A stretch of 38,219 bases of DNA from Halonotius pteroides (GTDB taxonomy: Archaea; Halobacteriota; Halobacteria; Halobacteriales; Haloferacaceae), in NCBI RefSeq assembly GCF_003605635.1, contig NZ_QMDW01000024.1:1-38219 (forward strand), written 5' to 3'. Positions 27,495-38,219 of the stretch are shown in pieces. Under the pieces are notes generated by a model. It ran no database searches. It was given only the letters and a program-made list of their open reading frames with translations, and was not told the origin of the DNA. The translations under genes and the position numbers were made by a program. Position 1 is the stretch's first letter, and every line of letters starts with the position of its first letter.

Positions 27495-28843
27495 TATTCG
27501 GAACCGGTGGATTCGTCTGACGAGTCGCTAGATCCACCGCCCCGGTTTGATCGGGTATTTGAGTTCGGAGTCGAATCAGGTTTGTTGCTACCAGAGTCTA
27601 CCCCTGAAGACGACCCAGCGGACTTCACACTACTCCCAGTGGAGTCGCCGTTTGATCCACCGTCGGAATCTTTTGGCTGTCCGGAGGTTTGGGTGTGTGA
27701 ATCTGCCGTACCACTGGCTGGTGAGCTATCATGCCGTTGTGTATCAGATTCGGAGGAGGCGGGTGGAGACTTACTTGGTGTCGTCGCCTGCTCTGAGGTC
27801 TCTATTGTGGAGGATTGTGAATCTCCTCCCGTCGATGTGTCATCCGATTTGGGAGGTGCTGATTCCTCCGACGTTCCAGATTGTGGTGCTCCACCGTCGG
27901 AAGTCGGATTCGTACCTGAGGGCGATTCGGATGTATCATCTTCCTCAGGTGATTCGCTCGGTTGGGAGTCTGAATCGCTCTCAGTGGGCGATCCTTCTGA
28001 ACTGTCGGCTTCTAAGTCGTTCGGCTCTTCGGACTGTGGAGTCGTACTGTCCGAAGGCGAATGTGAGTCCTCATTTGGATCTGGCCCATCCGTATCGTCT
28101 TCAGCGGGTGGATGATCTGATTGGGATCCTGATTCTTCTTTTGTAGACGACTCCTCTGATTCTTCAGACTGCGGTGCCTTCCCACCGGAAGCAGATTGCT
28201 CATCTAACGCTGTATCAGATGTGTCGTCCCTTGGAGGGGGATTGTCTGATTTCGATTTTGAGTCTTCATCAGGAGACGAATCTTCTGATTCGGCCGGTGG
28301 TGAGTGATCTGATTTTTCCGATTGTAAAGTCCCATCGTTGGATCCAGTGTTGGATTCACCATTTGAAGTTGGATTAGACGTGTCGTCTTCCGCTGGTGAA
28401 TTAGCTGGTTGCGACTCTAGACGTTCTTTTGTAGTCGAGTTTTCTGATCGATCGGATGCCGAGTCCTCTGGTTCTTCCGACTGTGGAACTTCCTCATCGG
28501 GAGCCAAACTTCCATTGGAAGGCAGTTCAGATGCGTTATTTTCCGGGAGACCGTCCAGTACCGGTGATGGGTTCTCATCAGTATCCGGTACCAATGAACC
28601 GTTTTCCGTTTGGTTTTGTGCTGTCTCGTTGCTGGTGGCGTTTCGTGCTGTCTCGTTGCTAGTAACATTTGTCTCTATGGTATGCAGGGTGTGATCCTGT
28701 GAAACCATCTCAATGGCCGGTACATCGGCATTAAAACCGATGGAAACAGATTCTCCATCTGATAGGAATGCGACTGACCCGCTTCCAGTCGTCGCCGCGA
28801 CGAAGACAAAGAGGGCACTGAGAACGACGGGTAGTTTACTCAT
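27494..28843 (-). CDS. secreted low-complexity Ser/Asp/Glu/Pro-rich repeat protein
   Basis: About 449 residues from the ATG at 28843 (the in-frame start at 28873 lies inside the upstream gene). It has a signal helix near residues 3-22, then A-F-L-S-D-G-E-S-V-S-I-G-F-N-A-D, the same layout as the SipW-type substrates upstream, then N-linked-glycosylation-like N-x-T/S motifs. The rest is a degenerate tandem repeat of about 45-50 residues with landmarks P-Q-S-E-E and P-(A/P)-E-D-D-T, seen five or six times, ending in a Ser/Gly tail without a membrane anchor. Such regions act as extended stalks or matrix. It overlaps the peptidase gene by 8 nt, so it belongs to the operon. Confidence 0.7.
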   Translation of the reverse strand: MSKLPVVLSALFVFVAATTGSGSVAFLSDGESVSIGFNADVPAIEMVSQDHTLHTIETNVTSNETARNATSNETAQNQTENGSLVPDTDENPSPVLDGLPENNASELPSNGSLAPDEEVPQSEEPEDSASDRSENSTTKERLESQPANSPAEDDTSNPTSNGESNTGSNDGTLQSEKSDHSPPAESEDSSPDEDSKSKSDNPPPRDDTSDTALDEQSASGGKAPQSEESEESSTKEESGSQSDHPPAEDDTDGPDPNEDSHSPSDSTTPQSEEPNDLEADSSEGSPTESDSDSQPSESPEEDDTSESPSGTNPTSDGGAPQSGTSEESAPPKSDDTSTGGDSQSSTIETSEQATTPSKSPPASSESDTQRHDSSPASGTADSHTQTSGQPKDSDGGSNGDSTGSSVKSAGSSSGVDSGSNKPDSTPNSNTRSNRGGGSSDSSDESTGSE

Positions 28844-29822
28844 CGCTTTCCTCCGACATCTCACCCTCGCCACCGTCAGGCAGCGGGAGGGCCGGTGGCA
28901 AACGTGGCTCGTCGGGGTTATTCGCTTGCCATGCCGAGATGGTCATCGCCCCCGTAAACAGGAGCCCAAGAAGCCCCGCAGTGAAGACACCGACCGAGAG
29001 TGGGGTCGGTGCGGCGGCGGTAGTGACCTCACGGTAGATGTTCCAGCCCGCATATACGAGCAAGACTGTCATCGCAAGTAGTGTGAGTTTCAGATCCACG
29101 ATTGCGAGTTGCCCGGTGTCGGACGAGGACGGGTTATGGAAGTCCGAGCTTGCAGTGGCTTGGCTAGTGGGAGTAGACTGTGTTTCAGGATCGATATCAT
29201 CGGCGTGGGCAATCGCATTCTCCACGTCATCCGTAGTCTGCCACTTAAAATTCTGCTCGCCATCGGTACCGACGGTCGCTGTTGGATTATCGGCCGATAC
29301 TGACTGGTGGGCTGTGTCTGATGCGGTGGTGGGATCCTGGCGAGCCCACTTGCGGAGTTCACTCACCCCGAGTAGCACCAGCGGAATCACCACAAGCAGG
29401 ACGTAGCCGACAGGCGAATTCGCCCACAGGATCACATATCCGACAAACGGGATCGTGATGATGGTGCGTCCGATAACGGATTCAAAGGCAACAAGCCCCG
29501 AATCAACGTTCTCATTGGCATCACCTTTGGTCTGGTAGCCACCGTCCCGTTCGTCGATCACACGGTGTGTTGTCGGCACTTGGTCGCCGGTATCATACGT
29601 GATGATGTCACCGACACCCACGGTGGCAGTTGCATCGACGATCACTACATCACCGGGCGAAAGTGTTGGCTCCATACTCCCTGACAGGACGACGTAGCTC
29701 TCGTCGGCCCCAACCACCTCGGGGAGGGCAAACACTACAAACGGCGAGACAGCCGCGATCAGCACGAGCGTCACCACAAGGCTACGCGCTCTCGGCAACG
29801 ATGACCGTGAGAGCGGGATCAT
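28836..29822 (-). CDS. SipW/Sec11-type signal peptidase I
   Basis: A 328-residue membrane serine protease of family S26B. The nucleophile is Ser49 in S-G-S-M-E-P, the basic residue is His86 in T-T-H-R-V, and Asp101/Asp107 in K-G-D-A-N-E-N-V-D complete the Ser-His-Asp triad of archaeal and ER enzymes. A transmembrane helix precedes the site; two or three more follow (about 125-150 and 240-290), with an acidic linker between. It should cleave the signal peptides of the exported proteins in the same operon, as SipW does for TasA and TapA in Bacillus. It overlaps its neighbours by 4 nt and 8 nt. Confidence 0.85.
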   Translation of the reverse strand: MIPLSRSSLPRARSLVVTLVLIAAVSPFVVFALPEVVGADESYVVLSGSMEPTLSPGDVVIVDATATVGVGDIITYDTGDQVPTTHRVIDERDGGYQTKGDANENVDSGLVAFESVIGRTIITIPFVGYVILWANSPVGYVLLVVIPLVLLGVSELRKWARQDPTTASDTAHQSVSADNPTATVGTDGEQNFKWQTTDDVENAIAHADDIDPETQSTPTSQATASSDFHNPSSSDTGQLAIVDLKLTLLAMTVLLVYAGWNIYREVTTAAAPTPLSVGVFTAGLLGLLFTGAMTISAWQANNPDEPRLPPALPLPDGGEGEMSEESDE

Positions 29823-30997
29823 CGGTCACCTCGGGCAGCTCCGGACGCACCATTGCCGTTCCCGTTCCAACCGCTGACGACAGTATTCGAATGTGAGGGA
29901 TCAGTACACCCCTCGCAGTCTGCCTTCGAATCGGCCGTACAGACACAGACTGTGACGTGGCTAATCGCGGTTCCCTCTGGTGCGTACACGATACCGTTGG
30001 TGTCACTGCCAGGGAGAGACAGTGTGTCCGCCGAGAGGCCATCGGTGCGGTCATACTGCTCGTATCCGCGACCACCTTTGACCGCGACCGTGCAAATCGG
30101 CGGGGCGTTTCCACCGGTAAAGCTCACAAGCCGGAACGCAATCCCGACCGTTTCGCTACCGCCACCCTTGTCTGCGGTATCGTAGATCTCCAATCCGTAG
30201 TCTGGATCGCCGTTATTGAAAGCGTATACTCCGGGGGTGGCGAAACTCTCGCTTAGTCCCGACTGCGTATCGTCTTCAAACTCAAGTTTCCCAAGCGTGT
30301 TGCAGCATGGGCATGGGTCAGCGGCAGGACATGGATCTGAATCCACCCCTGCAAAGGGATTCTGCGTGGATGCGTTTCGGCACTGGAGGGCTGCAAACCA
30401 CAGCGGTAACGCAACCGTCTCAGTTCCGATATAGCCGTCGAGTTCGTACTCGATGAGGAGACAGACAGTGTCGACCAAGCAGTCGTTGCCTGCCGTCGAC
30501 GGATCACCGTCGACCCGGAATCCCCCGCGGAGATCCTCAGCAACCTCACGCAGTGATCCAGCAGTGACTCGCTGGAGGCGGCTTCCGGAGTGACAGTCAG
30601 CGTACGACACCACAACGTGAATCGACTCCGCTACTGCAGTCGATTGTGGAACCGGGCAGTCTGTCGCAAGCCACAACGCTGCCGGGTTGTTGACCGCATC
30701 GCCACGTTGCGGCAACGCGAACGTGAGACGCATGCTCCCGGAGGCAGCAGTTGGGCTGAGCGACCCGATTGGCAGCCTCACACGTGGGCCATCGATTATC
30801 CCCTGTCCGTCAGGCTCGCCAGCACCCGGGCCGGTCAGCAGTTCGTACTCCGCACGCAGGTCGACTGTGCCGGCCGTGATCGAGGCGTCATACCGCTCTG
30901 TATCGCGGAGCATTGCAGCGGTACCAGTTCCCATCAGCGCGCCGGCCCCACCCGTGGCGGCTACCGCCGCCAAGATCCGGCGTCGAGTCACAGTCAT
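29819..30997 (-). CDS. exported SipW-type substrate, cysteine-rich
   Basis: About 392 residues from the ATG at 30997; the longer in-frame start would add an Arg-rich stretch overlapping the previous gene. The N-terminus M-T-V-T-R-R-R-I-L-A-A-V has twin arginines, then M-L-R-D-T-E-R-Y-D-A-S-I-T-A-G-T-V-D-L, the post-cleavage motif of TasA/camelysin-type proteins. The domain that follows has beta-rich character with L-P-Q-R-G-D. A cysteine cluster (D-P-C-P-A-A-D-P-C-P-C-C) sits near residue 265, and the C-terminal section is a separate beta-like domain. Overlaps the signal peptidase gene by 4 nt. Probably a fibre or surface-matrix component. Confidence 0.7.
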   Translation of the reverse strand: MTVTRRRILAAVAATGGAGALMGTGTAAMLRDTERYDASITAGTVDLRAEYELLTGPGAGEPDGQGIIDGPRVRLPIGSLSPTAASGSMRLTFALPQRGDAVNNPAALWLATDCPVPQSTAVAESIHVVVSYADCHSGSRLQRVTAGSLREVAEDLRGGFRVDGDPSTAGNDCLVDTVCLLIEYELDGYIGTETVALPLWFAALQCRNASTQNPFAGVDSDPCPAADPCPCCNTLGKLEFEDDTQSGLSESFATPGVYAFNNGDPDYGLEIYDTADKGGGSETVGIAFRLVSFTGGNAPPICTVAVKGGRGYEQYDRTDGLSADTLSLPGSDTNGIVYAPEGTAISHVTVCVCTADSKADCEGCTDPSHSNTVVSGWNGNGNGASGAARGDR

Positions 30998-31812
30998 TGT
31001 GACCCTCCACCGGTGAACGGGCTGTCTTCCCCACACGGACCGCCACCGAAGGAGAAATCGAATCCCAGTGAGTCCCCTTGCGCTTCGTTGCCGGTGTTGG
31101 CCGGTACCGCCCAGCGAAGCGCGACACACCGCAAGGTTCCCGGATCAAGACAGTCGAATGCGAGAAGCCCTGCATCAGCACCAACGTTAGTCGTCGGCGA
31201 GAAGGCTTCAGCGACGGGGGCGGGCGCGACAAGCGGCGATTCAAGACTCTCATCGAACTCTTTTTTACCGTTACAGCTGCCAAACGGGGAGCCGTCGCGC
31301 CATATCTCAACGGTCGCAAGCTCGTCAAGTTCACCGTCATTCGATGTCGTATCGCCCTCAACCTGTTCGGGGCCGTTGATGCCATTCTCGGAATCGTCTG
31401 TTACCTCTGCACGGAGCCACACGTCAAGCGGCTCGGCAGGATCTGCAACCACTTCGAGACCGACAACGACAACCCCGGTGTCACCCGGAAGGACGTTTTG
31501 CACGGCAATAACCGGGCCGGAGGCGTCAGTCACGAACGTCGCTTCTTTTGTGTACCCAGGGCCCCCATCGGGATCTAAGGTTGTTTCGAGGTCGTCGTCG
31601 GTGTCGGCATGGTTTTCGACAAACGTGCCGTTGTATCGCTCATACCACGCGATGCTGAGGCGTTGGTCGTCGGTATCATCATCGGGTGCGGCGTACGTGT
31701 ACTGTGAGAACTGCGGCGGGTTCCAGGGCGCTTTCCCGACGGCGACGATCCCACCGACTGTGAGCGTCCCGCCACCGATACCCGTCAACAGTTTCCGGCG
31801 TGTTAATGTCAT
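30994..31812 (-). CDS. exported TasA/camelysin-like protein
   Basis: A 272-residue exported protein. The signal starts M-T-L-T-R-R-K-L-L-T-G-I (twin arginine), and the mature part carries V-L-P-G-D-T-G-V-V-V-V-G-L-E-V, the repeated P-G-D-x-G beta-strand motif seen in the sibling proteins. The end has conserved C-V-A-L-R-W-A-V-P and G-D-S-L-G-F-D-F, also shared with the vWA-containing protein. Four-base overlap (ATGA) with the next gene. First gene of the tightly packed five-gene block; 370 bp separate it from the upstream vWA gene. Confidence 0.7.
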   Translation of the reverse strand: MTLTRRKLLTGIGGGTLTVGGIVAVGKAPWNPPQFSQYTYAAPDDDTDDQRLSIAWYERYNGTFVENHADTDDDLETTLDPDGGPGYTKEATFVTDASGPVIAVQNVLPGDTGVVVVGLEVVADPAEPLDVWLRAEVTDDSENGINGPEQVEGDTTSNDGELDELATVEIWRDGSPFGSCNGKKEFDESLESPLVAPAPVAEAFSPTTNVGADAGLLAFDCLDPGTLRCVALRWAVPANTGNEAQGDSLGFDFSFGGGPCGEDSPFTGGGSQ

Positions 31813-32184
31813 TGTCAGTTGTCCCGGATACGCCGGGTCGTTGGTGGATCGGACGTACCGATCCGTTGGTCGGATGAGTGTAGATCAATAGCGGAAATAG
31901 GTATGAGCCGATGTCATCCAGGTACGGCGTTCGTACCGGACGGCAGGCGGCCACTACCACGCTCACTAAATCATGCTACCTCATCGGGGCGATATGCTGT
32001 GGTGTTCAGTTTGGGGTCGTTATGTTCTATCATTATGCTGTTTATTCCGGTATTCGTTGGGTTATCTGCGGTCTTGTGTGACCGTTGCCGGTGCCTGTTT
32101 CGTGCTCCCTGTCTCGGTGACGGAAGAATACCCACCGGAGGAGTCGAACCCCCGTTCGCCGTCGTGGGCTGTCGCAAGAACCGA
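31813..32184. other. long intergenic leader holding a tRNA-like minihelix
   Basis: No gene. The minus-strand tRNA-like structure at 32131-32168 lies near its upstream end. The remaining 300 bp shows only short AT-rich and GC-rich patches; a promoter for the downstream gene block may be inside. Confidence 0.35.
32131..32168 (-). ncRNA. tRNA-like minihelix 2, 3' of the vWA gene
   Basis: On the minus strand, CCCAC (32168-32164) pairs with GTGGG (32135-32131). Between them a T-arm-like hairpin has stem GGGGG (32153-32149) and CCTCC (32141-32137), one G-U pair, with the 7-nt loop TTCGACT. The T-loop consensus TTCRAnY, 5-bp stem and 7-nt loop are those of tRNA, but there is no D or anticodon arm. 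It begins 16 nt after the vWA gene's stop codon. Possible recognition element for RNase P or tRNase Z; function is inferred. Confidence 0.4.
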
Positions 32185-33882
32185 TCAAGCGACTTGCGGC
32201 CCGGCACCATCGTTGTGCCGTTCTTGTTCGGTGTAGAACCCTAAGTCGAAGCCAAGGGTGTCACCTTGCACCTGATTTCCGACTGTGAACGGAAGTTCCC
32301 ACGAGAGTGCAACACAGTGCATCACGCCCTCGCCGCGGAACGCCTCTCGATCGGGGTTGTCAGCAGGATCAGTCAGCTCGTCGTAGATCGTGGCTCGGTT
32401 GCCGTCAAGCGGGATCCCGTTACCATCCGCTAATTCGGTGAGTACAGTGGCAAGACTATCTTGCATGATAACTTTCTCAGCGACCGTTTGAGCCGCGAGA
32501 TTTCCGAACACATTCGGGATATCTACTGGGTTGTCAACATCGTTGAAGAAGGATGGATCTCCGCCGGTTCCACCGGCCGAACCAGCCATCGACTGAAGGA
32601 TACTATCGTTTGCGCTTCCAACCGAAATGGTGAACACGTCTGTAGGCGGCGACAGTGATCCAGCACGGGCGTTGTCGGCTGCGGTGACTGGATCGGAAAA
32701 CTGCGTGCTTCCGGTTCCGTTGAACGATTCGCCATCCGAGAGAATGATGTTCGTGTAATCCACCCCGTTGCGGCCATTAGCATCGATTTCAGCTTGCGCA
32801 TCGTCGACGCCTTCGCCGATGTAGGTACCCGTCGCAATCCCATTCGTAAAGAATGGACTCGGATTACCGTCACCATCGAACGGCGTCGATGGAGCACTAC
32901 CGGTCACAACATTTGCAAGTTTCTGGCGAAGCCCTGAGAGCGCCCCGTCGACAACCGAGAGGTCAGTCGTCAGTGGCTGGAGGATCCCAGTTCGAGGAAT
33001 ATTGTCGTCGGTTCCTTCGCCGTCAAAGTAGGCGACCCCAACTTGCACATCCGCGTTCTGGGATTGAAGGTAGTCAACGAACTGACGAGTCCCCAATTCA
33101 ACGAGATCAATCTTTGTCGTTTCTGACAATGTAGTCCCATTGAGCTGAATGTCGTCAGTACTGACAAGCCCGCCGTATTGATCGTACAGCATCGATCCAG
33201 AGAAGTCCAATGTCAGCATGATATCGACCGGTTCGTCGATATCGTAGACATTGTCGCAGTCCTCATCGTACCACAGCGTCGCTTGGATCTCATCCCCAAG
33301 CGTACCGAGGTTGTCTGGATCAACTGCCATTTCAGGGTCAGTGAGGATACCGCCGTCTTCGGAAACATTGTCAGCCTGCATCCATAGGTAGCCAGGATTA
33401 TCACACAGGTGAAGCGAAAACGTAATTTCGCCGCTGTCTCCGGGCTTTACATCGGAGAACTGCACCAGCGTCTCCATGTTTTCATCGGTAACAGGGTCAA
33501 CGCCGAAGTCAGCCTCCGATAGCGGCGGAATGTTCTCACAGGTCAACCCGGGGATGTTCGCACCATTGCTGTCAGGATCGTCGTCGTCCGGGAAATCACT
33601 GTAGTTTTGAACGGTCTGGGTCTCTGGGTCAATGATCGACTGTTCGCCGTCGTTGTCGTGATCGGGGTGGGCACTGACGAAGGTTTGGCCGTCGCCGAAG
33701 TCGTAGGTCTGTTGCCAGTCGACCAGCAGGTCAAGCTCACCCGCGACGAGCGAGTTGTCGACGAACTCCTCTTCATCGCTAAAGAACGCGCTCGTGCCGG
33801 CACCAGCACCCGCAGACGCGAGTCCAACGACACCGATCCCCGCGAGCACCTTGCGGCGGGAAAGTCTGGGTCTTTTATTCAT
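32185..33882 (-). CDS. exported SipW-type protein with von Willebrand A domain
   Basis: A 565-residue exported protein. The signal L-S-R-R-K-V-L-A-G-I has twin arginines and is followed by S-A-F-F-S-D-E-E-E-F-V-D-N-S-L-V-A-G-E-L-D-L, the TasA/camelysin signature. A beta domain with V-K-P-G-D-S-G-E-I follows (about 50-210). A vWA domain begins near residue 219 with the metal site D-F-S-G-S (Asp226, Ser228, Ser230) and extends to about 490. The end shares C-V-A-L-S-W-E-L-P and G-D-T-L-G-F-D-L with sibling proteins. vWA domains mediate adhesion, so this could be a fibre tip or cell-contact protein. Flanked on both sides by tRNA-like minihelices. Confidence 0.8.
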   Translation of the reverse strand: MNKRPRLSRRKVLAGIGVVGLASAGAGAGTSAFFSDEEEFVDNSLVAGELDLLVDWQQTYDFGDGQTFVSAHPDHDNDGEQSIIDPETQTVQNYSDFPDDDDPDSNGANIPGLTCENIPPLSEADFGVDPVTDENMETLVQFSDVKPGDSGEITFSLHLCDNPGYLWMQADNVSEDGGILTDPEMAVDPDNLGTLGDEIQATLWYDEDCDNVYDIDEPVDIMLTLDFSGSMLYDQYGGLVSTDDIQLNGTTLSETTKIDLVELGTRQFVDYLQSQNADVQVGVAYFDGEGTDDNIPRTGILQPLTTDLSVVDGALSGLRQKLANVVTGSAPSTPFDGDGNPSPFFTNGIATGTYIGEGVDDAQAEIDANGRNGVDYTNIILSDGESFNGTGSTQFSDPVTAADNARAGSLSPPTDVFTISVGSANDSILQSMAGSAGGTGGDPSFFNDVDNPVDIPNVFGNLAAQTVAEKVIMQDSLATVLTELADGNGIPLDGNRATIYDELTDPADNPDREAFRGEGVMHCVALSWELPFTVGNQVQGDTLGFDLGFYTEQERHNDGAGPQVA

Positions 33883-34076: not shown

Positions 34077-34946
34077 TTATTGACCACCAGTTGAGTTGTT
34101 CACCGGAGCTGTGTTGTTGAACGGATCCTCGTTGTGTCGAACCTGTTCGGTCTCGAAGACGAGATCAAACGAGATCGAGTCGCCCTGAATCACGTTGCCG
34201 ACCTGGAACGGGATCTCAAGGAGGAGACAAAACGAGTAGACGCCCTGGTTGGCCTGGTCGTTAATCGGCAGCAGGTCGCCGTTGTCGTCTTTGATTAGGT
34301 ATCCATCCTCAAGCACTCCGTTTGCCTCGCGGGCGTTTGTGTAGTGAGTGACACCGTCGACGACACCACCAACATCTGGCGATCCGTAACTGATGTTAAG
34401 ATCATCAGAGGCATTGTTGAATACGGGATCGAGTGTGGAGAGTCCAGTCTTGTCGCCACTGGTCTCGTCATAGTTTTGCCACACGGTCGTCAGCAGGAAT
34501 TCACCGAGGTCGGCATCGTTGTCGGTGTCACCCTCGACGTCCTGCTCGGGTTCGGGGTTGGCACCACCGTTCTCTACGAACTCTTCTGTGCGCACCTGCA
34601 CGTAGCCGGGGTTGTCGCCGACCTCGATATCGAAGCAGATAACCGCCCAGTCGCCGGGCTTGACATCGTCGACCTGAATGCCCGAAACCACGTCGCCATC
34701 AGCTGTTTCGCTCAGGTCAAGGGCACCTTGCCCGGTCCAGTAATCGTCGGCCGCGACGACGTTGGCGGTGACACTCATATCGAGCGTCCCCGCGGTGAGC
34801 GTGTTATTTTCGAAGCTCTCTTCATCGCTGAAAAACGCCGAGGTACCGACGCCGGCACCCGCAGACGCGAGGCCGACAACACCGAGACCGGCTACCATTT
34901 TGCGGCGTGAGAGGCTGTACAGTTGGGGGTTGTTGTCTTCTGTCAT
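34077..34946 (-). CDS. exported TasA/camelysin-like protein, likely major subunit
   Basis: About 289 residues from the ATG at 34946 (a longer in-frame start at 34979 adds 11 residues). The signal L-S-R-R-K-M-V-A-G-L is nearly identical to that of the vWA protein, then S-A-F-F-S-D-E-E-S-F-E-N-N-T-L-T-A-G-T-L-D-M. The beta domain contains V-K-P-G-D-W-A-V-I-C-F-D-I and D-N-P-G-Y-V, and the end has L-L-E-I-P-F-Q-V-G-N and G-D-S-I-S-F-D-L. It is the simplest of the family here and lies nearest the promoter, so I infer it is the most abundant subunit. Mature TasA-like proteins polymerise into fibres, including archaeal bundling pili. Confidence 0.75.
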   Translation of the reverse strand: MTEDNNPQLYSLSRRKMVAGLGVVGLASAGAGVGTSAFFSDEESFENNTLTAGTLDMSVTANVVAADDYWTGQGALDLSETADGDVVSGIQVDDVKPGDWAVICFDIEVGDNPGYVQVRTEEFVENGGANPEPEQDVEGDTDNDADLGEFLLTTVWQNYDETSGDKTGLSTLDPVFNNASDDLNISYGSPDVGGVVDGVTHYTNAREANGVLEDGYLIKDDNGDLLPINDQANQGVYSFCLLLEIPFQVGNVIQGDSISFDLVFETEQVRHNEDPFNNTAPVNNSTGGQ

Positions 34947-35010: not shown

Positions 35011-35032
35011 TATCCCCACATCACAGGGGGTA
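35011..35032. promoter_or_regulatory. imperfect palindrome upstream of the surface-protein operon
   Basis: TATCCCCA and the matching GGGGGTA form an imperfect inverted repeat about 70-85 bp before the start of the 34946 gene. A possible operator. Confidence 0.3.
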
Positions 35033-35120
35033 TTACCTATGTGCTGATTCAACTGTTTGAGGCCCTCTCGGAGGTGTTTTGAACGGATGATTACGCCATT
35101 TGGTATTCAAACAGACTGAC

Positions 35121-35255
35121 CATACCAGTTTGCACGGAACGCATACCGCCTCGTTAGGCGGACATACCGGTCGTCTCCAGCCACCATACCGACTGGGTTG
35201 ACTAGTCATACCGATTTGTACAGCTCCCGTACCAGTAGTATCCAGTTGACATACC
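35121..35255. promoter_or_regulatory. seven helically phased CATACC repeats between divergent genes
   Basis: CATACC occurs at 35121, 35142, 35163, 35185, 35207, 35228 (as CGTACC) and 35250. Spacings are 21, 21, 22, 22, 21 and 22 bp, two DNA turns each, so all copies face the same side. The extended core is about CATACC(A/G)(A/G)T(T/C)TG. The array is 41 bp before the GTG of the DUF7344 gene (35296) and 175 bp before the divergent surface-protein operon. This looks like a cooperative operator; the DUF7344 regulators are candidate binders. Confidence 0.8.
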
Positions 35256-35295
35256 GGTTTGGTACTCTTACCCTTCTATCTGTACCCAAATAGCA

Positions 35296-35880
35296 GTGAA
35301 TTCATATCTATCTCACTCACGCGCGTTGCGACGAGCAATGTTCAATCAGGCCATGCTGCCCGAGGTAGAGGTGTACAGCGTGCTCAGTAACGCGCGCCGA
35401 CGCGAGGTGCTCATAGAGCTGTGGAAACAGCCTGAGAGTATGTCGTTGCGTGACCTTTCGGAACGAATCGCAGCCACAGAGTCTGGAGAACGCCCCGCGC
35501 CACGCGCGCTCCGGGAGAGCGTCTACAACGCGCTCCATCAGACACACCTTCCGAAATTGGACAGCCTCGGACTGGTGGTGTATGATCCAAACCGGAAGAC
35601 GGTGCGTGTCTGCTCGCAGGCAGGGCAGCTGAATCGCTATATGGATGTGACAACACGTATCGGCGTCACATGGGGGGAGTATTATCGCGCACTCGGCGTT
35701 GTCGGACTGGTTGTGACAGTCGGCTCGTTAGCAGCAGTTCCGCTACTCGCTGCAGTCGATCCGCTTATCCCCGCAACAGCCTGTCTCTTGTTGTTTGCCG
35801 GTTCAACCATCTATCAGCTATACGCTGGGCGGCTGGGTACCGGCGGTCAGGTGACACGGCTCCTCGCACGCTTCTTATAA
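35296..35880 (+). CDS. DUF7344 helix-turn-helix regulator with membrane helices
   Basis: A 194-residue protein (GTG start at 35296; an ATG at 35338 is also possible). Residues 25-110 form an ArsR-like winged helix: V-Y-S-V-L-S-N-A-R-R-R-E-V-L, a wing, and V-Y-N-A-L-H-Q-T-H-L-P-K-L-D, the DUF7344 hallmark. Two hydrophobic helices follow (about 130-175), so it is probably a membrane-tethered DNA-binding protein. It is transcribed divergently from the SipW/TasA-like operon across the phased CATACC array, which suggests that it controls the operon and itself. A paralogue lies at 36976. Confidence 0.75.
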   Translation: MNSYLSHSRALRRAMFNQAMLPEVEVYSVLSNARRREVLIELWKQPESMSLRDLSERIAATESGERPAPRALRESVYNALHQTHLPKLDSLGLVVYDPNRKTVRVCSQAGQLNRYMDVTTRIGVTWGEYYRALGVVGLVVTVGSLAAVPLLAAVDPLIPATACLLLFAGSTIYQLYAGRLGTGGQVTRLLARFL

Positions 35881-35901: not shown

Positions 35902-36726
35902 TTAATCGTCATCAACAGCAGCTGCGTCAGTCTCGAAGAGGCGAGCATCACAGTCGTGGCAGACGGCAGCGACCACCTCGTACTCCCGACAGCAAGAACT
36001 CACTGATTCGGTTCCAAGCCTGATCTCGCCCCAGCAGACGGGGCAGGTGTCACAGCAGGCGCGGATTGCTGAGAGGGTTCGTCCCCGAGCCGAACCCGGA
36101 ACCATATCCCATTCATCAGTCCAGTCAGCAAGTGTACGGTGAGCAGCAAGATCGGTAATAAACGCCGCCCGTGACTCCCACTTGCCACGGATCGAGTCGT
36201 CAACAGAGACACGCCACGACAGGCCGCCATCGACAAACGATAGCTGCTCCGGGGCAACATCTAGCAGATCAGCCGAGCCAGCGAGCAGTGCTGCATCGGA
36301 ATCAAGCTCAAGTGCGGCCACTTTGAGACCCACTTCAAACTCCGGGGCGAGCCCAATATCGTCACCGTCGTCGACCACAACCGATGTTCGGGTGAGAAAG
36401 GAGACAATGTCGAATGCATCCGTCGGTTCCTCTGGTGGCATCGGGGTGTCGGCCGCCGACTTTCCAAACAGATCGAGCACTCGGTCAGGGAGATACCGTT
36501 TGGTTAACGCAGGCGTCCCGGGTACCAAGTACCCACGAAGATAGATACTCGCAAGCGAACCCAGCGCAACCGGAATGCCGGCTGGCTGCCAGACAGCCGT
36601 AGCCCCAGCAGTAATCGCCGCCGCAAACATGAGGTTGACAACGGTACAAGGGCGACACCGATTCTCACCGGTATACTCAGGGCGGCGAATCGCCCGAAAA
36701 AGGCCAGAAGTCGATTTTTGTGTCAT
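35902..36726 (-). CDS. membrane protein with C-terminal zinc ribbon, hypothetical
   Basis: A 274-residue protein with C-R-P-C and two hydrophobic helices near residues 25-65, a soluble middle (F-L-T-R-T-S-V-V-V-D-D-G and L-S-W-R-V-S-V-D), and a cysteine-rich end: R-A-C-C-D-T-C-P-V-C-W-G, S-S-C-C-R-E-Y-E and V-C-H-D-C-D. The last part looks like two zinc ribbons. The family seems haloarchaeal and has no known role. It lies between the two DUF7344 genes on the opposite strand, convergent with the first (21 bp between stops), which suggests it works with them, perhaps as a membrane partner. Confidence 0.55.
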   Translation of the reverse strand: MTQKSTSGLFRAIRRPEYTGENRCRPCTVVNLMFAAAITAGATAVWQPAGIPVALGSLASIYLRGYLVPGTPALTKRYLPDRVLDLFGKSAADTPMPPEEPTDAFDIVSFLTRTSVVVDDGDDIGLAPEFEVGLKVAALELDSDAALLAGSADLLDVAPEQLSFVDGGLSWRVSVDDSIRGKWESRAAFITDLAAHRTLADWTDEWDMVPGSARGRTLSAIRACCDTCPVCWGEIRLGTESVSSCCREYEVVAAVCHDCDARLFETDAAAVDDD

Positions 36727-36975: not shown

Positions 36976-37575
36976 ATGAGCAAACTGCAGCCAGTTGCCA
37001 AACCACTCCCAGCCGACAAACAACAGCTATCAACCGAAGCTGTCTTCGAAACACTAAGTAGTCGCCGGCGTCGGTTCACACTTTATTATCTGTCACAGGT
37101 CGGTGAGTCTGTCACCATCCGGGAACTTTCTACGCAGATCGCCGCATGGGAAAATGGCGTTGAACTACACGCAGTGACACCGAAGCAACGAAAACGGGTG
37201 TATACCGCCCTCCACCAAACGCATCTCCCGACGATGGATCGGCTAGATGTGATCGTGTATTCGAAAGATCGCAAAACCATCACCATCACCAATCAGATTC
37301 AGGAATTTGATCTCTACCTCGATGTTGTGCCACCTAATGACCTCCCGTGGAGCCAATTTTATTTGTTACTGAGTGCAGCTATCTCTGTGTTGGTAATCAT
37401 CGCTGTCCAAGGGGTGGCACCGTTTTCTTCCGTTGGCGGATTCGGGTACGCACTGCTGGCCAGTGGCGTCTTCATTATCACCAGCAGCCTCCATTACCTC
37501 CGTGATCGACGGACGCTAATCGGATCCGCAGCGACGCCTCCGGAGGTGGAGCCACCACGGGAAATTACGGAATAA
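36976..37575 (+). CDS. DUF7344 helix-turn-helix regulator with membrane helices (paralogue)
   Basis: A 199-residue paralogue of the gene at 35296. The winged helix has V-F-E-T-L-S-S-R-R-R-R-F-T-L, I-R-E-L-S-T-Q-I-A-A-W-E-N-G and V-Y-T-A-L-H-Q-T-H-L-P-T-M-D-R-L, with a wing K-D-R-K-T-I. Two hydrophobic helices follow (about 130-175) and a short acidic tail. A well-placed TATA box suggests a leaderless transcript. Two such genes close together may bind as heterodimers or control different parts of the locus. Confidence 0.75.
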   Translation: MSKLQPVAKPLPADKQQLSTEAVFETLSSRRRRFTLYYLSQVGESVTIRELSTQIAAWENGVELHAVTPKQRKRVYTALHQTHLPTMDRLDVIVYSKDRKTITITNQIQEFDLYLDVVPPNDLPWSQFYLLLSAAISVLVIIAVQGVAPFSSVGGFGYALLASGVFIITSSLHYLRDRRTLIGSAATPPEVEPPREITE

Positions 37576-37598: not shown

Positions 37599-38219
37599 CT
37601 ACGCTCCCGACGCGTTCTCGGTGACAAGCCCCTGAGACATCAGCCGGCGAGCAACGACTACAAGCCCGTTTCCAAACCCCTCACCGAAAACGGCTTGTTC
37701 AGCTTTTGAATCCGGTATGATCGAACTTACTAGAATTGAGGCACCGTCAACCATCAGCAGGCGACCAATCGCAGTGTCATCCGCCGTTGCATTCTCACCG
37801 TGCAACCAGCCAAGCTCCGAGACAAACGTCGTGGCGGCCGGCACGGCTGTTTGAATCTCTGCTTGCAGCGACGGCGTTAGTGCGCCCACGGTTAGTTCGA
37901 TGTCGTCTTCCACCCCGGTTAACGTCTCGACAAGGTCTGCGGTCAACAGCGTTTTATCCCCGATAACCAAGACAATCTCTTCGGTCGCTGTTTGGATTAG
38001 CTGTTCTGCCCGGTTTTCGATCGGGTCTCGGCCGCGCATCGTCCAGACTTCCTGTGCCGACGAGCTGTCGTTATCCTCGACGGTCTCGACTGTCTTGAGC
38101 GCGTTGTGAAGGCGATCAACACGACTCTCATACCGATCACGAAGTGTGGCAGTTGTCTCCTCTAATACTGATAGCTGAAAATTCATGAGGGTTGAGCCAC
38201 AGTATCCAATACGGTGACA
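37599..38219 (-). CDS. TrmB-family transcription regulator, C-terminal part (open at right edge)
   Basis: The frame is open from 38219 inward and ends at a stop at 37599-37601. What is present is the helical linker (E-E-T-T-A-T-L-R-D-R-Y) and the TrmB effector-binding domain: W-T-M-R-G-R-D, E-I-V-L-V-I-G-D, I-G-R-L-L-M-V-D-G-A-S-I-L-V-S-S, and G-E-G-F-G-N-G-L-V-V-V-A-R-R-L-M. The N-terminal winged helix should lie beyond the edge. An internal ATG at 38186 is in the repeat and would give only the effector domain. The first 18 codons are the 55-bp inverted repeat, whose left copy leads to a stop instead. Confidence 0.75.
   Translation of the reverse strand, partial: CHRIGYCGSTLMNFQLSVLEETTATLRDRYESRVDRLHNALKTVETVEDNDSSSAQEVWTMRGRDPIENRAEQLIQTATEEIVLVIGDKTLLTADLVETLTGVEDDIELTVGALTPSLQAEIQTAVPAATTFVSELGWLHGENATADDTAIGRLLMVDGASILVSSIIPDSKAEQAVFGEGFGNGLVVVARRLMSQGLVTENASGA
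38165..38219. repeat. right copy of 55-bp terminal inverted repeat
   Basis: Reverse complement of 1-55, identical over all 55 bases. Here it is in-frame coding sequence of the TrmB-family gene. Inversion of the segment between the copies would exchange the TrmB C-terminus for the short tail found at the left edge. Confidence 0.9.

Follow-up and report, generated by a model that had tools for sequence, protein, structure and literature searches.

Operators built of regularly phased sites are of a known kind in Archaea, since regulators of the Lrp family, such as Ss-LrpB and Ptr2, bind cooperatively to several sites placed on one face of the DNA at intervals of two or three helical turns; Ss-LrpB was shown to regulate its own gene (PMC2995911). 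ArnR and ArnR1 of Sulfolobus acidocaldarius, which regulate surface structures, are described in the relevant section of one source as proteins with an N-terminal helix-turn-helix and two C-terminal membrane helices, and binding of ArnR is said there to need both of its boxes, two 15-bp inverted repeats TCGAC-N5-GTCGA (PMC6396743). EarA of Methanococcus maripaludis, a winged-helix regulator of surface-appendage genes, is presented in the corresponding sections of two sources with a 6-bp box, TACATA, occurring in four copies in a promoter (PMC6396743; PMC13286277). TubR, a small winged-helix protein, coats the several direct repeats of tubC as a filament and represses its own operon (PMC5016525).

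We analysed a stretch of 38,219 nucleotides of Halonotius pteroides DNA (contig NZ_QMDW01000024.1; hereafter, the window), in which an array of short boxes lies between a gene coding for a DUF7344 protein, denoted here DUF7344-A, and a divergent set of genes coding for SipW-type, TasA-like secreted proteins. In literature searches we found no paper naming the DUF7344 domain, none dealing jointly with haloarchaea, SipW and TasA, and no account of the control of SipW-type or TasA-like proteins in haloarchaea. The array shares with the Lrp-type operators the location of sites on one face and their two-turn spacing (21 or 22 bp in clear arrays). However, each Lrp site is an inverted repeat, 13-17 bp long and AT-rich in the middle, as stated in the part of PMC6396743 dealing with them, whereas the logo of the boxes studied here is CRTACCGGT. 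The array is further set apart from the Lrp operators by its direct repeats, by the alternation of strong and weak boxes, with up to seven or eight strong ones, and by the vicinity of an unrelated, uncharacterized regulator family. ArnR, as portrayed in the section cited above, is the closest system in protein layout and role; unlike DUF7344-A, which with its 180 amino acids has no room for them, it contains HAMP and sensor domains. The sections on EarA mention neither membrane anchoring nor two-turn phasing for this protein. TubR appeared among the weak fold matches of DUF7344-A, but TubR/tubC is a plasmid partition system operating with TubZ, and nothing of this kind is found at the array locus.

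Results

Structure and rarity of the array

The sequence-only reading had reported seven CATACC motifs phased every two helical turns. Six of them were exact in a motif search of the window, whereas box 6 reads CGTACC (Table 1), and the array covering positions 35121-35255 consists of six CATACC copies and one CGTACC. The distances between successive boxes, 21, 21, 22, 22, 21 and 22 bp, were precisely those claimed. The supposition that chance is a very unlikely source of such regularity also held: the chain score, combining the motif with its phasing, gave z = 27.6 relative to 200 dinucleotide shuffles, none of which reached the score of the array. Genome-wide work in the host consisted of pattern searches of its 3.0-Mb genome, in which three-box patterns were unique to the array, and two-box pairs occurred 22 times (three of them supplied by the array), compared with 11 occurrences of a reversed control pattern. 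The CATACC word alone was found 21 times in the window versus 13.7 expected, and because the array itself makes up most of this excess, it is the array and not the word that constitutes the signal. Recent tandem duplication was ruled out by the diverged linkers separating the boxes and by TRF, which detected no tandem repeat at the array; an RNA element was rejected, as no Rfam match was obtained.

Table 1. Positions of the array, its flanking elements and neighbouring genes in the window
Feature	Position	Strand	Basis or remark
Divergent gene set following its first gene (second SipW-type protein, two further proteins, archaeal signal peptidase I)	28839-33882	-	
Archaeal signal peptidase I	28839-29822	-	TIGR02228, 94 bits (cut-off 51.85)
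Second SipW-type protein	32185-33882	-	TIGR04088 above cut-off
First gene of the putative divergent operon, SipW-dependent-type signal-peptide protein (TasA/camelysin-like)	34077-34946	-	TIGR04088, PF12389
Conserved element GTATTACCTATG (CATAGGTAATAC on the - strand; GGTATTACCTATG at 35029-35041), probable core promoter	35030-35041	-	-308 from ATG
Box 1, CATACC(A)	35121-35126	+	-217 from DUF7344-A ATG
Box 2, CATACC(G)	35142-35147	+	-196 from DUF7344-A ATG
Box 3, CATACC(G)	35163-35168	+	-175 from DUF7344-A ATG
Box 4, CATACC(G)	35185-35190	+	-153 from DUF7344-A ATG
Box 5, CATACC(G)	35207-35212	+	-131 from DUF7344-A ATG
Half-period weak box, GTACAG	35218-35223	+	
Box 6, CGTACC(A)	35228-35233	+	-110 from ATG; departs from CATACC, fits the family consensus RTACC
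Similar weak box, GTATCC	35238-35243		
Box 7, CATACC(G)	35250-35255	+	-88 from DUF7344-A ATG
Similar weak box, GTACTC	35262-35267		
Probable TATA region of the DUF7344-A gene, CATATCTATCTC	35303-35314	+	
DUF7344-A, winged-helix domain and hydrophobic C-terminal helices; proposed binder	35338-35880	+	PF24035, AlphaFold2, hydrophobicity
Conserved 274-aa protein gene, between the two DUF7344 genes	35902-36726	opposite	
Second DUF7344 gene (B)	36976-37575		Downstream of DUF7344-A in almost every member of the clade of the window
TrmB-like gene	37599-38186		Weak match to a TrmB model, E = 0.0027, below cut-off

Genes flanking the array

Matches of the flanking genes to PF24035 and TIGR04088 confirmed that the array is located between a DUF7344 regulator and a SipW/TasA-like operon. 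DUF7344-A belongs to the former family with 91.9 bits (gathering cut-off 27.8; E = 3.3e-26), and conservation places its start at the ATG at position 35338, not at the upstream GTG at 35296. The fold predicted by AlphaFold2 (mean pLDDT 76) is a winged helix followed by hydrophobic helices. Its comparison with known folds yielded weak, generic winged-helix matches (PadR/LmrR, MarR, E2F and TubR), none of them with E < 0.001, and one weak match of ArsR type was found at the level of sequence. Five DUF7344 proteins are encoded in the host genome, and a first look brought dozens of candidates in some haloarchaeal genomes.

On the other side of the array, the product of the first divergent gene scored 29.6 bits with TIGR04088 (cut-off 19) and matched PF12389 with E = 1.8e-6, which, together with a signal peptidase I encoded in the same gene set, identifies it as a SipW-dependent secreted protein; the Bacillus SipW model NF046067 was matched below its cut-off. 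Judging from strand and packing, the genes between 28839 and 34946 appear to form an operon. The product of the 32185-33882 gene contains DFSGSM, a sequence resembling the metal-binding motif of von Willebrand A domains, and no match to such a domain was returned by Pfam at the threshold used. The gene for the 274-aa protein, for which neither Pfam nor NCBIfam gave a match, is often present at the locus within the clade of the window. The TrmB-like gene was also considered as the source of the binder and was rejected, being kept only by the nearest relative among ten loci compared.

Conservation of the array in haloarchaea

Orthologues of DUF7344-A came from two sources, a set of named genomes (Halonotius, Haloglomus, Halobellus, Halorientalis and others) and a 392-genome sample of the order. 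Their upstream regions carry the same phased boxes, and the linkers between these have diverged. In lag spectra, which use no motif model, identical 5-mers in the group of at least 60% identity recurred at 21, 22, 43, 64-65 and 86-87 bp, with z reaching 31.5, and TACCG was the most frequent of the repeated words; the coding control did not show the lags of the array. A scoring matrix was trained on nine of the assessed loci, excluding in each case the locus being scored. It detected a forward array at z of at least 5 in 24 of the 75 assessed DUF7344 upstream regions, belonging to many haloarchaeal genera, and an opposite-strand array in four. A divergent SipW-type gene is present in all 24 forward-array regions versus 25 of the 47 array-less ones. 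Many DUF7344 relatives at about 45-52% identity are devoid of the array, and half of these also adjoin SipW-type genes.

Strict three-box matches were found upstream of a DUF7344 orthologue in ten of the 392 genomes. All of the 24 other match places examined lie inside open frames of 125 to 726 codons, and no DUF7344 homologue was found in their flanks; the remaining strict-pattern matches, for the most part near-identical tandem repeats, were assessed from the search output alone. On the DUF7344 tree, the loci with an array group together (8 changes versus 22.7 in shuffles); they correspond to one DUF7344 clade, that of the window, and a second one with a changed box. In the former, 17 of 19 tree rows have the array beside DUF7344-A; the region upstream of one of the two exceptions ends at a contig end, and the other contains two boxes (z = 4.4). 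The array could thus be found beside DUF7344 genes of related genomes, as the sequence-only reading had proposed to check, and its absence from orthologous loci, named there as the outcome that would speak against a regulatory role, was sought and not observed within the DUF7344 clade of the window. The array, together with the SipW-type gene and the orthologue of DUF7344-A, is missing from two Halonotius genomes that are more than 90% complete, G002 and G004. No clear array was seen upstream of distant DUF7344 paralogues in the genus, in a test which is weak, some of the loci having been read in the wrong orientation.

These data bear on the possibility that the array has no regulatory role and consists of replication iterons, serves as a partition site, or is a tandem repeat of chance or coding origin, which we regard as extremely improbable. 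Direct repeats of about 21 bp do have a spacing like that of plasmid iterons; however, no replication or partition gene was recognised beside the array, the combination of 21- and 22-bp spacings breaks the reading frame, and the position is locked to the divergent promoter region in many genera. The diverged linkers and the missing Rfam match mentioned above argue in the same direction.

Consensus of the box and the repeat unit

The logo prepared from 37 boxes reads C-R-T-A-C-C-G-G-T, and on this comparison of sequences the box is better given as (C)RTACCGG than as CATACC. Across orthologues, at least four of six matches occur at offset 10 or 11 in 57% of boxes versus 11-19% at other offset pairs. 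As a weaker copy often lies midway between the strong boxes, the basic period is a single helical turn, and strong copies alternate with weak ones. The two-turn phasing described earlier for CATACC remains valid for the strong boxes, and it was refined by the longer motif, the weak half-period box and an underlying period of about 10.5-11 bp. Five loci belonging to the second DUF7344 clade mostly have CCTACCG as their box. The partial dyad ACCGGT is kept neither in that clade, where CCTACCG is followed by variable bases, nor in locus L112 (CATACCGGAT).

Register of the array with the probable flanking promoters

In the seven closest loci, representing several genera, the boxes are found at positions -217, -196, -174, -152, -131, -110, -88 and -67 from the DUF7344 ATG, nearly always within one base and with some missing (coherence 0.95 over 49 boxes). 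On the SipW side, the first box is separated by 91-92 bp from the start of GTATTACCTATG in all seven. These fixed distances on both sides put the array in register with the two promoter regions. The element GTATTACCTATG, found in most members of the window's clade, is probably the core promoter of the SipW-type operon, and TATA-like words occur at about -29 to -38 from the ATG in most array loci. Since GGTATTACCTATG, strongly conserved in this clade, contains the core of the box as an inverted pair (GGTA-T-TACC), this element may be more than a core promoter.

The distance between GTATTACCTATG and the ATG is 308-309 bp in five of the seven closest loci, whereas the other two have 286 and 267 bp, respectively. 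The element is separated from the first good box by 60 bp, three turns less, in three Halorientalis loci and in L049, and shorter arrays therefore look like loss of whole turns. Among six lineages, the element-to-ATG distances of 308, 286, 279, 277, 267 and 226 cluster in helical phase with P of about 0.02 at 10.5 bp per turn and not at 10.8 or more, which makes this clustering suggestive only. Conservation of the box, phase and register across genera bears out the earlier notion that all copies face the same side of the DNA, as for binding of a regulator.

Discussion

In our view the array is likely to act as an operator serving two divergent promoters, to which the membrane-anchored DUF7344-A binds cooperatively on one face of the DNA. 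An operator function is strongly supported by the comparison of sequences, and cooperative binding may reasonably be inferred because the box, phase and register are conserved. DUF7344-A, the only regulator gene product encoded next to the array in every lineage examined, is the best candidate for the binder, though an unproven one; it is favoured by this constant proximity, and also because the array follows the DUF7344 phylogeny and the box is altered in the other DUF7344 clade. As DUF7344-A and the SipW-type operon travel together, the comparative evidence falls short of proof, and the array could therefore be tied to a regulator encoded elsewhere. The many DUF7344 relatives at about 45-52% identity that are devoid of the array, and the purely generic fold matches of DUF7344-A, also count against it as the binder.

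One such possibility would be that the same two-promoter operator is bound by an unlinked regulator, for instance an oligomer of the Lrp/AsnC type, which seems to us unlikely. Archaeal Lrp regulators do recognise groups of evenly spaced sites whose centres are separated by two or three turns (PMC2995911), but their sites, according to the above-mentioned part of PMC6396743, are imperfect inverted repeats, whereas direct repeats with a C/G-rich core are present here. Moreover, presence of the array tracks the DUF7344 tree, and the only conserved neighbours seen were the DUF7344 genes, the 274-aa gene and the SipW-type operon. It is still less probable that the binder is a heteromer, with DUF7344-A occupying the strong boxes and the second DUF7344 protein, B, the weak half-period ones. 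The alternation of strong and weak boxes and the nearly constant location of B downstream of DUF7344-A in the window's clade would agree with this idea; on the other hand, no array was seen upstream of B, and in four array loci of the second clade, which have DUF7344-A and are devoid of both B and the 274-aa gene, no B was found within about 4.5-5 kb downstream.

If DUF7344-A alone is the binder, as we prefer to assume, the 135-bp array would serve as an operator for the promoter of the SipW-type surface-protein operon as well as for that of the DUF7344-A gene. DUF7344-A would bind to the (C)RTACCGG boxes head-to-tail on one face of the DNA, where strong boxes recur at two-turn intervals and a weaker box, presumably also occupied, lies in each intervening turn. 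Neighbouring protomers would touch, making the occupancy cooperative, both promoters would be switched together, and DUF7344-A would be autoregulated. As to the sign of this regulation, activation may be slightly favoured as a guess, because the boxes stop upstream of the probable TATA region of the DUF7344 gene and not over it. A more far-reaching version, in which DUF7344-A forms a head-to-tail filament on the one-turn strong/weak repeats and, anchored in the membrane, pulls the divergent promoter region to it, is in our opinion rather doubtful. If it were true, the surface-protein operon would be transcribed beside the export site of its products, which would represent a new mode of archaeal gene control, exerted by a large uncharacterized family of regulators.

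For DUF7344 proteins, which are abundant in haloarchaea, the array offers a specific and conserved candidate target, a consensus of the box and its clade-specific variants, so that the function of this family becomes directly testable. The array also hints at how SipW-type, TasA-like secreted proteins might be controlled in haloarchaea.

A separate problem is posed by the arrays located on the opposite strand in loci L112, L104, L057 and L100, for which a strict geometric model would have to account. In L112 (genome G025), six copies of a 22-bp composite unit, approximately ACATACCGGATCGGATACTAGT, extend from -148 to -38 from the DUF7344 ATG; this array is composed of the same box, inverted and placed nearer to the DUF7344 gene, and the arrays of the other three loci are weaker.
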